Below are positions 49,609 through 57,281 of a stretch of DNA of 64,000 bases, piece by piece. The stretch's first letter is position 1; every line of letters begins with the position of its first letter. The notes under the pieces were generated by a model. That model ran no database searches, was not told where the DNA came from, and saw nothing but the letters and a program-made list of their open reading frames with translations. The translations under genes were made by a program, and so were the position numbers. Source of the DNA: Planctomycetota bacterium (lineage in GTDB: Bacteria > Planctomycetota > Phycisphaerae > UBA1845); assembly GCA_016200265.1 (NCBI GenBank), contig JACQFE010000053.1:1-64000 (forward strand), given 5' to 3'.

Positions 49609-50688
49609 TTATGACCTTGGATCGGTCATTGCGACTTGCGAATCGTTGATGAAGCTCACTTTCGTGCCGACGTGAACCATTTTGGCGAGGCGGAGGGCGT
49701 CCCAATTGGTCAGGCGGAAGCAGCCGTGTGATCCGGTCTTGCCGATGAGCTCGGGGTTGGGCGAACCGTGGATGCCGTAGCCGGGGAGTTTCAGGCCCAT
49801 CCAGCAGAGTCCGACGGGATTTCGCGGGCCGTGCGGGATCAGGATTTTCTGCTTCACGTCCTTCACTTCGGGCCACATTTTTGGATCGAAGAGGTAAGTG
49901 GGGTTTTCGCTGACCACGTCGATTTTCGTTTCGCCGCTGGGGAGCTTCTCCTTTTTCTTTGCGATCGAGCAATGGAATATGGCCGCGAGGCGGCGCTGAC
50001 TGTCGTAGACGCGGATGATCTTTTCACCGAGATCGATTTCAAGGTGTTGTGCGGCGTGTGCGGGCTCGCAGGAGATATTCGGCACGACGATGGATTCGCC
50101 GTCGCTCAACTTCGTTAGATTTCGGCCCGGATTCAAGCAGCGCAAGAGACCTCTCGAGCAGTGGAATTTTTCCGCGATTGCGGCCTCGACGGAATCGTAT
50201 CCGAGATATTTGAGCTTGCTTTTTTCGAGCCATTTTTCGGGAGATGGGCCGACTGCGGTTACGTCCGAAGTGGTCACGCGGTAGTCGGTCACCGAGTCGG
50301 AGGGATCGACGCGTAGCGCTTCGTTTGTGGCTGCATCGGGCGAGCCGGTTTCCGGCAAGTGATGCACGCGCTGGAACTCTGCGAGGGCGATTTTGGTCTT
50401 GCGACCGAGAGTTCCGTCGATGACTCCGGGGGAATAGCCGACACGCTCGAGGGCGATTTGGACGGCTAGAGCCTGCTTGAGTGATCCACCGGTCGCTCGT
50501 GGAGCGGCAATAGCGATTGCGGGGGGGAATAGTAATGCGAAGATTAACGGAAGGTGCGGGGTAAAGAACTTGCATGGCGGCGCTGCGCTTGGCCATGGCA
50601 CCCCCAGGAAGCGTCGCGGCGCTACGCTTGGCCATGGCACCCAGCGCAATCTGCCGAAGCTCGCAATTCGCCGAGAAATACCAAACAT
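49609..50688 (-). CDS. L,D-transpeptidase with peptidoglycan-binding domain
   Basis: A hydrophobic segment (LPLIFALLFPPAIAIAAP) acts as signal peptide or anchor. A PG_binding_1 domain follows (QIALERVGYSPGVIDGTLGR with TKIALAEFQRVHHLPETGSP), then a LysM-like stretch (CLNPGRNLTKLSDGESIVVP). The YkuD-type catalytic domain (LEIDLGEKIIRVYDSQRRLA) ends with HGSPNPELIGKTGSHGCFRL, containing the catalytic His and Cys. It forms 3-3 cross-links or attaches proteins to peptidoglycan. The N-terminal 40 residues before the signal translate two copies of a 25-bp repeat (VPWPS.AP), so the true start may be further in; no ATG in frame lies there. Confidence 0.88.
   Translation of the reverse strand: MFGISRRIASFGRLRWVPWPSVAPRRFLGVPWPSAAPPCKFFTPHLPLIFALLFPPAIAIAAPRATGGSLKQALAVQIALERVGYSPGVIDGTLGRKTKIALAEFQRVHHLPETGSPDAATNEALRVDPSDSVTDYRVTTSDVTAVGPSPEKWLEKSKLKYLGYDSVEAAIAEKFHCSRGLLRCLNPGRNLTKLSDGESIVVPNISCEPAHAAQHLEIDLGEKIIRVYDSQRRLAAIFHCSIAKKKEKLPSGETKIDVVSENPTYLFDPKMWPEVKDVKQKILIPHGPRNPVGLCWMGLKLPGYGIHGSPNPELIGKTGSHGCFRLTNWDALRLAKMVHVGTKVSFINDSQVAMTDPRS
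50578..50642 (-). repeat. Two copies of GGCGCTGCGCTTGGCCATGG repeat, 40 bp apart
   Basis: GGCGCTGCGCTTGGCCATGG then CACCC at 50578-50602, and again with one change (GGCGCTACGCTTGG) at 50618-50642. The L,D-transpeptidase frame stays open across both, reading GVPWPSAAP and WVPWPSVAP. The direct copies could promote deletion by recombination. Confidence 0.8.
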
Positions 50689-52431: not shown

Positions 52432-52528
52432 CTCTTTTACACAGAACCCCATTGCAGGTCACTCGCAAGCGCGTTAGCCTCGCGCCAGATCTTGATCCTC
52501 GTACTTCGGCGAAATCGTGGAGTCAATT

Positions 52529-54121
52529 ATGTCCTCATCCAGTGATTGGAATCGTCGGGATTTTCTCTATGCCGCGGTTGGCGGCGCGGCGGGCATGTAT
52601 CTCGGCGGTTGCTCGCGTTCACTTTCGCGTCCATACAGTGACCTGCGCCCGACGGCGATGGGTCCGGCGCCGAAGAACCGCTGGCCTGAACTTGCACAGA
52701 TAGCAATGGATCGCGTTCGTCGCGGCGGCTGCGATTATGGCGACATTCGATTGATCGAAACGCGAACGCAGAATGTATCAGCTCGCGATCGGCGCATTGC
52801 GAACGTTGATGAGCGGCTTGATAGCGGTTACGGAATTCGGGTGTTGTATCGCGGGGCATGGGGGTTCGCGGCGAGTGCCGATTTTACCAATGATGAAGTT
52901 CGTCGAACGGCGGATCTGGCCGTCGAAATAGCGCGAGCGAGTCATACGCTGATGAAGGAGCCCGTGAGGCTCGCGGATGAGCCTGTTCACAATGACTCGG
53001 TGAAAACCGCATTTCAAATTGATCCGTTCACGATTTCACTCAATGAAAAGTGCAATTTGTTGACGGAGGTTTCCGAGGCGCTGCATCGCCAGAACGGCAT
53101 TATTCGTTCGAATGGGAATCTTTGGTGCCAGCGCGATGTCAAGCATTTTGCGTCGACCGAGGGCAGCGCCATCGACTTCAATTTGCTCGCGGTTGGGGCC
53201 GGGTTCGGCGCGACGGCCAAGGGCGATGATGGTGATTTTCAATCGCGAAGTTACGACGTAACGAACAAGCGCATCGGCTGGGAGCATATCGTCGCGGGCA
53301 ATTTGCTTGCGAATGCGCCGCGCGTCGCGGAACAGGCGGTGGAGAAGGTGAAAGCGCGGCAGCCGGAGCCGAAGAAATATGACCTTGTGCTGGATTCGGG
53401 CCATCTGGCGCTGACGATTCACGAAAGCTGCGGGCATCCGACGGAGCTGGATCGCGCCTTGGGGTACGAAGCCAATTACGCGGGCACGAGCTTCCTGACA
53501 CCTGAAAAGCTGAACAATTTTCGATATGCCTCGAAGCATGTCACCATCGTCGCCGACAACACGCGGCCGACGGCGCTGGCGAGCACGGGCTATGACGACG
53601 ACGGCGTGGCCGGTCAGCGGTGGCCGATCATCGAAGAGGGAATTTTGCGGGGCTACTCGACGAATCGCGAGGTGGCGCGTGCGATCGGCGAGAAGCGGTC
53701 GCGCGGGTCGTGTCGCGCGGATAGTTGGGCGGCGATTCCGATCGTGCGAATTTCCAATGTCGGGCTGGAGCCTGGTTCGGAGACGCTGGATTCGCTGTTC
53801 AACGGGGTCGATGACGGGATTTACATCGAGGGTCGCGGCAGCTTCAGCATCGATCAGCGGCGGTACAACCTGCAATTCGGCGGCGACGTATTTTGGGAGA
53901 TCAAGAACGGCAAGCGCGGGGCGATGCTCAAGAACGTGATCTACAACGGCATTACGCCGGAATTCTGGGGATCGTGCGACGGTGTCGGAAACAAGGAGAC
54001 ATGGCGCGAGCACGGGTTCACGAATTGCGGCAAGGGTCAGCCGGGTCAATCGGGCTGGATGACGCACGCCGCGAGCCCGGCGAGATTTCGGCAGATTAAT
54101 GTGATTAATCCGAAGGCGTAG
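52529..54121 (+). CDS. TldD-like metallopeptidase with Tat/lipoprotein signal
   Basis: From ATG 52529 the N-terminus is MSSSSDWNRRDFLYAAVGGA. The twin arginines in NRRDFLY and the following hydrophobic part ending LGGC form a Tat signal with a possible lipobox. The body is TldD/PmbA-like: YGDIRLIETRTQ, RDRRIANVDERLDSGYGIRV and the active site HESCGHPTELDRALGYEANY, with HExxxH at residues 298-303. YDDDGVAGQRWPIIEEGILR follows, then NVGLEPGSETLDSLF and FGGDVFWEIKNGKRGAMLKN. TldD/TldE cleaves unfolded or modified peptides. The partner gene starts 20 bases downstream. Export of TldD is unusual compared with cytoplasmic E. coli TldD. Confidence 0.9.
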   Translation: MSSSSDWNRRDFLYAAVGGAAGMYLGGCSRSLSRPYSDLRPTAMGPAPKNRWPELAQIAMDRVRRGGCDYGDIRLIETRTQNVSARDRRIANVDERLDSGYGIRVLYRGAWGFAASADFTNDEVRRTADLAVEIARASHTLMKEPVRLADEPVHNDSVKTAFQIDPFTISLNEKCNLLTEVSEALHRQNGIIRSNGNLWCQRDVKHFASTEGSAIDFNLLAVGAGFGATAKGDDGDFQSRSYDVTNKRIGWEHIVAGNLLANAPRVAEQAVEKVKARQPEPKKYDLVLDSGHLALTIHESCGHPTELDRALGYEANYAGTSFLTPEKLNNFRYASKHVTIVADNTRPTALASTGYDDDGVAGQRWPIIEEGILRGYSTNREVARAIGEKRSRGSCRADSWAAIPIVRISNVGLEPGSETLDSLFNGVDDGIYIEGRGSFSIDQRRYNLQFGGDVFWEIKNGKRGAMLKNVIYNGITPEFWGSCDGVGNKETWREHGFTNCGKGQPGQSGWMTHAASPARFRQINVINPKA

Positions 54122-54141
54122 TCGATAAGAGGTGACATGAG

Positions 54142-55407
54142 ATGACACTAAGTCTTGCTTCTGAGGCAACGTTTCGGCGGATTGCGGACACGGTTCTTTC
54201 CGCGTCGAAGGCCGATCACACGTCGGTCAACTTTAACGATTCCGAATCGTCCACGCTGCGATTCGCGAACGATCAGGTGACGCAGAATGTTTCGGTGCGG
54301 ACGCCGAACGTCACCGTGCGTGTGGCCTTTGGGCAAAAGCACGGCGCGGCCAGCACCAATCGGCTGGACAAGGATTCGCTGACGACGGTGGTTCGACAAG
54401 CCGAGACGATCGCGCGGCTCGCCCCGGATGATCCGGAATATCTTCCGCCGCTCGATCCGCAGAAATATCTCGACGTGCCTTCATTTCGCAAATCGACGGC
54501 GTCGGCCGGGCCGATGGACCTGGCGAAACTTGCACGTCCGGCAATCGAGCAATGCACGAAAAATGGTTTCACCGCCGCGGGGATCGTGTCGAATGGTTAT
54601 TCGTCGGAGGGTGTGGCCGCTTCGAGCGGGCTGTTCGGATACGAACAATCGACCGAATCGGAGTTTTCGCTGACGGCGACGGCCGACGACAGCTCCGGCT
54701 GGTGCAACAATTCGCACCGCGACATCGAGGCATTGGGGATTTCTTACGGCGTCGGTCGGGCCGTGGACAAGGCGAAGATGTCGAAGAACCCGCGCGAGCT
54801 CCCGGCGGGGCATTATCCCGCAATTCTCGAACCGTCCGCGGTCGCGGGCGTGCTGGGGGCGATGGGTTTCGCGTTCGATGCGAAGAGTTACTACAAGGGA
54901 AATAGCGCGTTGGCGGGCAAGCTCGGCTCGCAGATTCTGGATCCACGATTGAGCGTTCGCACCGATCCTCGACACCCCGATCTGCTCGGCGGCGCATTTG
55001 ACAACAGCGGTCTGGCGACGAGGCCCATGACGTGGATTGAGGACGGCGTGCTCAAGCAACTCTCGTATGATCGCTTCACGGCGAAGGAGCACAACGTCGA
55101 GCCGACGCCGTTTCCGCGGGCGATGATCGTCAGTCTGTCAGGCAGGAATGCATCGTCCATTGATGACCTGATCGCGAACACCAAGCGGGCGATCCTCATC
55201 ACCAACTTCTGGTACATCCGGCCCGTCGATCAAAAAGATTTGACGATCACGGGAATGACACGCGATGGCACGTTTCTTGTCGAAGACGGCAAGATCACCT
55301 GCGGCGTCAAGAATTTCCGCTTCCACGACAGCCCGCTGCGATGCTTCGCGATGCTTCCGGCGGTCCTGCTGCCGGATTTTCATCTTTCGAGCGTGACAAA
55401 GTTTTAG
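54142..55407 (+). CDS. TldE/PmbA-like subunit
   Basis: This 421-residue partner has the PmbA/TldE pattern: VNFNDSESSTLRFANDQVTQ, VRVAFGQKHGAASTNRLDKD, VVRQAETIARLAPDDPEYLP, GHYPAILEPSAVAGVLGAMG, LDPRLSVRTDPRHPDLLGG and KRAILITNFWYIRPVDQKDL. It lacks the HExxxH motif, as expected for the non-catalytic subunit. No signal peptide or Tat motif is visible, whereas TldD has one. Either the pair assembles before export, with TldE carried along by the Tat signal of TldD, or TldE acts in the cytoplasm. The tail of about 20 residues after NFRFHDSPLRCFAMLPAV is typical. Confidence 0.88.
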   Translation: MTLSLASEATFRRIADTVLSASKADHTSVNFNDSESSTLRFANDQVTQNVSVRTPNVTVRVAFGQKHGAASTNRLDKDSLTTVVRQAETIARLAPDDPEYLPPLDPQKYLDVPSFRKSTASAGPMDLAKLARPAIEQCTKNGFTAAGIVSNGYSSEGVAASSGLFGYEQSTESEFSLTATADDSSGWCNNSHRDIEALGISYGVGRAVDKAKMSKNPRELPAGHYPAILEPSAVAGVLGAMGFAFDAKSYYKGNSALAGKLGSQILDPRLSVRTDPRHPDLLGGAFDNSGLATRPMTWIEDGVLKQLSYDRFTAKEHNVEPTPFPRAMIVSLSGRNASSIDDLIANTKRAILITNFWYIRPVDQKDLTITGMTRDGTFLVEDGKITCGVKNFRFHDSPLRCFAMLPAVLLPDFHLSSVTKF

Positions 55408-55877: not shown

Positions 55878-57281
55878 TCAAATTCGTATTCGGCGGGCAA
55901 AATAGACTTTGCCAGCGATGAGAAACGCAAGTGCGAGAATCGTCAGACCCCATTGATTGGCGGTTGGGATCGGTGTCGGTTCCTGACAATCGGGAATTCC
56001 GTTGTGGTTGGCGTCGTTGGGGTTTAGCGTTGGGCACGGATCAACGTCGCCGCAGATTCCATCGCCATCGATGTCATTGTCGGGGTCGTTGGGGCATAAG
56101 TCCCCGCACATGCCGTCGATGCCGTCGTGATCGGCATCGCCCTCGCAAACGCTGCTTGAGTTTGGCGTGCCGCCCGCCAGTGAGCAGCAGACGCCAGCCA
56201 GATTCTGACAGGAGCCACCGGCACCACAACAAGCTGAGGGTGCGGAACACATAGCGCGAGCGGCAAATGATCCCTGATCCCCAGCGCAATCGGCATCGTT
56301 TGAGTCAATGCAAGTGCCATTCGTTTGGCAGCAAGCGCCAGTTTGAACAAGTGTATATGTGACCGAGTTCGGTGATCCGCCCGTGGCGAAGGTGAAAGTC
56401 GTTGTGACGCCGAGTTGAAGCGGGCGATCGAGGACGATCTCAATCGTTTCTGGCGCACCATTGTCTTGACGTCGTGTCTTGACGATCTGCGGCGCTACAC
56501 CGCTGGATACCTGCACGTTGATTTCATCGACGTGGACGTAGTTTGGTTGATCAAACGTCACAGTGAACGAGCTGAAGATTGGATGCTGGCTTGCATCCAC
56601 GATTCCAGCAGGGGGACTTGAATCGACAACGGCCTCATCCGTGGTAATGCGTCCGTACCGAACATAGTCCCATTCGTTTGTCGAAGGAACGGAGATAGGG
56701 TGCCGCCCGCCGTCGCCACGAATTTCGAAAAACGAGCTATCAGTGCTCTCAATTTGGGAGAGGCAATAGAAAAGCTTGCCGTCAACGTAGAAACAGAAAT
56801 TCACATCGTCTGGTTTCTCGAAGCGATAGGTGCGGAATTCGCCCGGAGTTAACCCCAGCAATTCCTGATTACCGCTTGAAGATACCGCTGCATCAGAATA
56901 CATATAGAATAGCTCGTTGCTGCGACGATGTTGAACTTCAAAGCTCCCGCCCCCGAAACCGAAATTGACGTAGAGCTCATTGGTTCGAAAACGCCATTCC
57001 ATCCAGAAAGGAGCGGCGGGAATCGGCTCCGGCATGGGGCGAGCGTAGATCACAAATTGGCAACAGCCCGACCATTCATTGACGAAATGCCCATCTTCAA
57101 CGGATTCACTGCATGGTGGGATGCAGGGTTGAAAGATCAAAAAGCCGACATCTTGAGGTCTGGAATTTCCCTCATATTGAAAATCCAGCTCGTCGCCCAA
57201 AGATTTTGCCATTGTTCCACTGACAAAACCGACGGCAGCAACCATTAGGAAAAGTTCGGAGCGTCTGATTCCGTCTCGCAT
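55878..57281 (-). CDS. IPTL-CTERM surface protein with Cys-rich and Asp-rich segments
   Basis: It has a signal peptide (LFLMVAAVGFVSGTMA). The first 200 residues resemble a beta-sandwich (FWMEWRFRTNELYVNFGFGG, FEIRGDGGRHPI). A possible Ig-like part follows (FSSFTVTFDQPNYVHVDEIN). Then come Cys-rich units (GACCQTNGTCIDSNDADCAG, SACCGAGGSCQNLAGVCCS), seen in many planctomycete proteins, and an Asp-rich segment (DADHDGIDGMCGDLCPNDPD) of calcium-binding type. It ends PTPIPTANQWGLTILALAFL followed by ARRIRI, an XrtH signal. It should be exported and processed by the exosortase at 22170. Function is unknown. Confidence 0.85.
   Translation of the reverse strand: MRDGIRRSELFLMVAAVGFVSGTMAKSLGDELDFQYEGNSRPQDVGFLIFQPCIPPCSESVEDGHFVNEWSGCCQFVIYARPMPEPIPAAPFWMEWRFRTNELYVNFGFGGGSFEVQHRRSNELFYMYSDAAVSSSGNQELLGLTPGEFRTYRFEKPDDVNFCFYVDGKLFYCLSQIESTDSSFFEIRGDGGRHPISVPSTNEWDYVRYGRITTDEAVVDSSPPAGIVDASQHPIFSSFTVTFDQPNYVHVDEINVQVSSGVAPQIVKTRRQDNGAPETIEIVLDRPLQLGVTTTFTFATGGSPNSVTYTLVQTGACCQTNGTCIDSNDADCAGDQGSFAARAMCSAPSACCGAGGSCQNLAGVCCSLAGGTPNSSSVCEGDADHDGIDGMCGDLCPNDPDNDIDGDGICGDVDPCPTLNPNDANHNGIPDCQEPTPIPTANQWGLTILALAFLIAGKVYFARRIRI

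Follow-up and report, generated by a model that had tools for sequence, protein, structure and literature searches.

Two genes of the PmbA/TldD family stand side by side on the forward strand of the window, the 64,000-nucleotide stretch of DNA that we analysed: tldD (52529..54121), encoding a 530-aa catalytic subunit with a predicted N-terminal Tat lipoprotein signal, and tldE (54142..55407), encoding a 421-aa partner subunit with neither a recognisable export signal nor the HExxxH motif. The gap between them is 20 bases long (54122..54141) and carries an AGAGG motif ahead of the tldE ATG; a Shine-Dalgarno-like GGAG (52519..52522) lies 6 bases 5' of the signal-bearing tldD ATG at 52529. Coordinates, gene identities and the 20-base spacing are all as a first-pass annotation of this DNA had given them, both by sequence and by Pfam, where TldD matches PF19289, PF01523 and PF19290 above the curated cut-offs and TldE exceeds those of PF19289 and PF01523, two of the three family profiles. 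The first 28 residues of TldD, MSSSSDWNRRDFLYAAVGGAAGMYLGGC, comprise a polar start, twin arginines (R9/R10, 52553-52558), a mildly hydrophobic stretch and a lipobox. Residues 1-27 (52529..52609) make up the predicted Tat signal peptide, C28 (52610..52612, in YLGGC) is the predicted lipobox cysteine, and residues 29-48 (52613..52672) are, from AlphaFold pLDDT, a linker between C28 and the folded domain. TldE begins MTLSLASEATFRRIADTVL and, in both sequence and model, runs directly into its fold. Also in the window, on the reverse strand, are an L,D-transpeptidase (YkuD) with a peptidoglycan-binding domain (49612-50688) and a 467-aa protein (55881-57281) whose C-terminal end, IPTANQWGLTILALAFLIAGKVYFARRIRI, resembles a C-terminal sorting signal and which gives a weak midcut-by-XrtH match (20.5 bits against a cut-off of 45).

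The AlphaFold model of TldD (pLDDT 90.5) has E. coli TldD (5njc_C, E 1.4e-40) as its best Foldseek match; segment 9-28 is modelled, at low confidence, as a single helix followed by a loose linker, pLDDT is below 50 at residues 20-44, and the first domain helix starts at residue 49. In the TldE model the first domain helix spans residues 8-21, and the Foldseek matches are PmbA/TldE structures. The HESCGH of TldD (53420..53437) is an HExxxH metal-site motif (H298, E299 and H303; role from the available part of PMC5810440), and C500 (54026..54028) falls in the alignment at E. coli C454, the third metal ligand. HExxxH is present in 29/29 of the TldDs with a Tat-like start (Tat-TldDs) that were read, and the third-ligand cysteine in all 14 planctomycete Tat-TldDs covering the region, one more being truncated; by alignment, the metal ligands of the window TldD are intact. 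HExxxH is absent from the window TldE, and one chance-like HESPLH occurs in L082. Against NF008006, the NCBIfam equivalog model for E. coli-type TldD, the window TldD scores 78.8 bits versus 513, which places it outside the E. coli subfamily: it belongs to the same superfamily as E. coli TldD and to a different subfamily. The window TldE is 421 aa long versus mostly 440 in its relatives, having lost 19 residues near the C-terminus by an in-frame deletion (approximate site 55345..55380) that is absent from the orthologues whose C-terminus was read; residues 409-421, its tail, have pLDDT below 50. The C-terminal loss may have altered or weakened this copy of TldE, or the deletion may be a local peculiarity.

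Profile models recognise the TldD signal by a narrow margin. The N-terminal 64 residues of the window TldD reach 17.0 bits in the NCBIfam Tat-signal model TIGR01409, 0.3 above its cut-off of 16.7; this cut-off was reached by 4 and missed by 6 of the 10 N-terminal pieces scored, and that of Pfam TAT_signal was reached by none of the 10. The sole Pfam match of the window piece was to another family's Tat-signal model, below its cut-off (18.6 vs 24). Conservation is stronger evidence for the predicted signal than the Tat profile score. We searched 197 genomes drawn from the phylum (117 with a match), 298 drawn from the class (51 with a match) and a named collection; the phylum and class sets, like those from the acidobacterial phylum and the phylum of an Oligoflexia MAG described below, are samples from larger groups. 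There are 16 distinct planctomycete TldD orthologues including that of the window (the others being L006, L035-L047 and L064, with L065 and L066 duplicating two of these), with 57-76% identity to the window TldD, and they span groups f1, f81 and f18 as well as one other MAG. RRxF is present in 16/16, within the start pattern [NST]RR[DEQA]F[ILV], and GC is likewise found in all 16, with the cysteine 18-19 residues past the first arginine (15/15 of the tree set, and L064); among the 15 Tat-TldDs of the tree set this spacing is 19 residues in 13 and 18 in 2. The window TldD thus combines a twin-arginine signal and mildly hydrophobic stretch, as expected of a Tat substrate, with a cysteine after that stretch, as expected of a lipoprotein (LGGC in the window, GC in 15/15). 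Read by eye, none of the 16 orthologues has Asp directly after this cysteine. In E. coli, the absence of Asp after the lipoprotein cysteine favours the outer membrane, a rule that may not hold for planctomycetes.

N-termini were read for 51 of the 59 planctomycete loci of the phylum and class searches (all but L055-L059 and L061-L063) and for 5/5 loci of the named collection, that is, for matches with a locus; the Tat scan was corrected by eye, removing L113, where the match lies inside the domain, and adding L092 (MLRREF). No Tat-like start was found on the 36 other planctomycete TldDs read. The first-pass annotation had proposed checking whether the signal is also found on further TldD orthologues from planctomycetes; among those read, it occurs in one clade only: the 15 signal-bearing planctomycete rows group together in a quick tree (SH-aLRT 100), which makes the signal one conserved trait and not 15 events. 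The gene itself is patchy, being present in 10/28 sampled genomes of its own family and in 1/5 genomes of the family of G122. A second, deep-branching TldD subfamily without a Tat-like start, at 31-33% identity to the window TldD, occurs in the same order (L060, in G413) and in the same class (L054, in G324). The motif NRRDFLY and the LGGC to which the first-pass annotation had drawn attention were strengthened by the conservation of the twin arginines and the cysteine, by the start-site evidence given below, and by the own genome, which encodes TatC as well as signal peptidase II. This genome is 94% complete and, by PF01523, shows no family members beyond TldD and TldE.

The partner subunit tracks TldD. 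Of the 19 genomes searched with TldE, the 15 with a Tat-TldD each hold a single TldE belonging to the same subfamily, which in G260 is split into two pieces of a single frame; among the other 4, G413 gave a weak match and G295, G391 and G473 gave none. The absence of an export signal from TldE, also noted at first pass, extends from the window to all 15 genomes: by reading and a simple scan, a recognisable export signal was found on 0/15 planctomycete TldEs, leaving the signal on one subunit only. RRx[FLIVM] occurs near the start in 3/15 planctomycete and 2/10 acidobacterial TldEs, and these candidates were rejected as Tat signals: in L070 and L071 the arginines sit in the first domain helix (RRx[IV]) with charged residues after them, FRRIA in the window TldE has a similar form and setting, and in L076, L093 and L109 the motif precedes the start codon. 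No TldE was found in 20 relatives sampled from the 247 genomes that gave no TldD match in the class search, with the same query that found TldE in the Tat-TldD genomes. The two genes adjoin in 10 of the 15 genomes, whereas in G419 some 0.5 kb separates them, and in 4 they are far apart (on separate contigs in G359, and separated by about 60 kb in G278, 0.67 Mb in G260 and 1.1 Mb in G407). In the sample, the TldD/TldE pair is kept or lost together, even without an operon.

Tat-like starts on TldD also occur outside the planctomycetes. In the acidobacterial phylum, 25/149 genomes matched (E up to 1e-40), and of 30 N-termini read among 34 listed matches, 14 have a Tat-like start (L090-L094, L097, L098, L101, L102, L107, L109 and L115-L117). 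None of these 14 has GC, AC or SC at the planctomycete spacing, the AC of L107 lying further along, and a recognisable signal was found on 0/10 distinct readable TldEs adjoining acidobacterial Tat-TldDs. Two acidobacterial genomes contain tldD-tldE-tldD triplets, G483 (L068/L090/L116) and G608 (L091/L115), in which both TldDs have Tat-like starts and TldE has no recognised signal. In the phylum of the Oligoflexia MAG, a Tat-like start was found on 0/18 TldDs (E up to 1e-60), and the TldDs of plasmid records are all below 60% identity. Placing the 29 Tat rows in one clade was rejected (p-AU 3e-5, with 44 N-terminal residues trimmed from 27/29 Tat rows, and with L020 and L023, which have an early in-frame stop, cut after it), so the signal has been gained or lost repeatedly: the tree shows 5 changes, and supported branches force at least 4 of these, with gain and loss indistinguishable. 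In sum, one planctomycete clade conserves the predicted Tat lipoprotein signal on TldD, and there are parallels elsewhere. The third metal ligand is Asp in 14/14 acidobacterial Tat-TldDs; in the acidobacterial TldDs without a Tat-like start it is Cys in 11, Asp in 4 and unreadable in 1. An Asp-for-Cys ligand swap is mentioned for Gemmatimonas in the available part of PMC5810440. We considered whether the Tat signal and the Asp ligand go together, avoiding a cysteine in an oxidising compartment, as the acidobacterial counts might suggest, and set the idea aside, as it would rest on 2-3 independent changes and the window clade keeps Cys.

We propose that TldD is synthesised with a twin-arginine lipoprotein signal and would fold and bind its metal in the cytoplasm, where the folded subunit would pair with the signal-less TldE. 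The folded heterodimer would then pass through the inner membrane via Tat, signal peptidase II would cleave just before C28, and TldD would be tethered to the membrane by its lipid and the roughly 20-residue linker, while TldE would be retained through TldD. On the outward side of the membrane, the pair would shorten unfolded or modified peptides from the N-terminal end, an activity that E. coli TldD/E has within the cytoplasm. The sequence itself shows the two genes and their pairing, the start site, the conserved arginines and cysteine, the intact metal ligands, and the genes for TatC and signal peptidase II; export as such, lipid attachment, the passage of TldE and the outward side of action are what we infer from it. 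We give this reading as a whole, a Tat-exported, probably lipid-anchored TldD carrying TldE as a folded heterodimer, a probability of roughly 0.6. Its parts differ in strength: export of TldD via Tat is very probable and, despite the narrow profile pass, well supported by the sequence; lipid anchoring of TldD is probable, if a little less so; and the joint export of TldE is moderately favoured by co-occurrence and E. coli biochemistry.

Each step of this proposal has a competitor. The downstream start envisaged at first pass, which would leave an ordinary cytoplasmic TldD, could draw on in-frame ATGs at tldD codons 23, 44 and 60, yet a Shine-Dalgarno-like motif stands at the first ATG and at none of these three. 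Across the orthologous genes, GGAG or GAGG lies upstream of the signal-bearing start in 14/16 (absent from L037 and L006) versus 3/40 later in-frame starts (Fisher p 1.2e-8, with start-motif and signal counts that are not independent, the genes sharing an ancestor), and the segment upstream of the later ATGs is conserved and signal-like in all 16; a downstream start is thus very unlikely. It is similarly improbable that Sec, not Tat, reads the signal, in which case TldD would cross unfolded and TldE could not ride with it. Many lipoproteins use the Sec route and the Tat profile pass is narrow, but the window does pass TIGR01409, and the arginine pair with F two residues on is invariant in 16/16. 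Somewhat less remote, though still quite unlikely, is that TldD is an inner-membrane protein in which the Tat-type segment serves as an uncleaved N-terminal anchor with no lipid. The low-confidence helix at 9-28 with its loose linker would suit such an anchor, as would the acidobacterial Tat-TldDs that have no cysteine at the planctomycete spacing; against it stand the GC cysteine, 18-19 residues past the first arginine in 15/15 planctomycete proteins of the set, and the signal peptidase II encoded in the genome.

The main competitor accepts export of TldD and denies that of TldE: TldD would leave alone and work outside as a homodimer, and TldE would stay in the cytoplasm with another job. Such an arrangement would fit the absence of a recognisable TldE signal from 15/15 genomes, the 4 genomes in which tldD and tldE are non-adjacent, and a Sulfolobus TldD homodimer reported active, as told in the available part of PMC5810440. 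However, TldD and TldE co-occur in 15/15 genomes versus 0/20 sampled, in the own genome no second TldD turned up with which a cytoplasmic TldE could pair, and, in the same part of that paper, E. coli activity requires both subunits, TldD being inactive without TldE and its homodimer unstable. We therefore regard export of TldD alone as unlikely, if less so than the other alternatives. Where two subunits depend on each other, a Tat signal on either one predicts joint export, and the physical dimensions agree: the width of the E. coli heterodimer is about 65 A (PMC5810440, in the part available), and Tat cargo is folded and 20-70 A in size, includes lipoproteins, and can carry signal-less partners (PMC4273604, in the part available). 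The hitchhiker export suggested in the first-pass annotation accordingly remains the most economical reading; in its favour are the single TldD and single TldE without a signal in each genome, their co-occurrence in the sample, the dependence seen in E. coli and the fit in size.

If TldD/E acts outside, its substrates must be periplasmic or surface peptides. The more particular suggestion made at first pass, surface peptides or the leader parts of exported peptides, gained nothing from the gene neighbourhood, where no neighbour besides tldE turned out to be widely shared and which implies no RiPP or export cluster around tldD/tldE. By ORF clustering over 19 stretches of 14 relatives together with L064 and the window, no other ORF family occurs in more than 4 stretches; ORFs were picked by a crude longest-first rule under which overlapping frames displaced TldD (L120, L133) and TldE (L135, L137), and several contigs are short, such that a common neighbour could be missed. 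Most of the remaining families in common come from three close relatives (G387, G399 and G403). TldD/E is said to be present in about 60% of bacterial genomes (PMC10885120, in the part available), and the jobs described for it in the accessible parts of the literature, leader removal from modified peptides and CcdA degradation, are both intracellular. Literature searches, which covered mostly titles and abstract openings, yielded no description of an exported TldD; the available main text of a P. aeruginosa Tat-substrate study names neither TldD nor PmbA (PMC6085387), and the part of a Vibrio study at hand lists TldD in an expression table without bearing on Tat (PMC12797937). The general role of TldD/E is poorly known, and an external version, if true, would narrow its possible purpose; it would also be a compartmentalised two-subunit peptidase beyond the cytoplasm, at the outer face of the inner membrane.

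The acidobacterial Tat-TldDs offer a close parallel, with a Tat-like start on TldD and none recognised on the 10 readable TldEs, although they differ in having no lipobox at the planctomycete spacing and Asp as third ligand, and they do not form one clade with the planctomycete set. One could envision that in several lineages, each on its own, the TldD/E "pencil sharpener" came to leave the cytoplasm, with Tat on TldD alone, lipid-anchored in the Phycisphaerae-like planctomycete clade and free or otherwise held in acidobacteria, a generalisation that to us has an even chance of being right. With E. coli TldD/TldE (PmbA; MEROPS M103; PDB 5NJ5 and kin), the window pair shares its fold, the HExxxH and remote Cys of TldD, and a partner without HExxxH, whereas the window TldD, when matched by structure, has 22-23% identity with E. 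coli TldD and adds a predicted Tat lipoprotein signal and linker ahead of the domain. In its proposed mode of export, the pair resembles the hitchhiker Tat complexes HybO/HybC (hydrogenase 2) and PaoABC, in which one subunit bears the signal, the partner has none (HybC riding on HybO), and the folded size is suitable (PMC4273604, in the part available). Those complexes are redox enzymes, whereas the window pair is a peptidase with a proposed co-export; if that proposal is right, a peptidase would join the hitchhiker Tat cargoes that redox enzymes exemplify in the available part of that paper.
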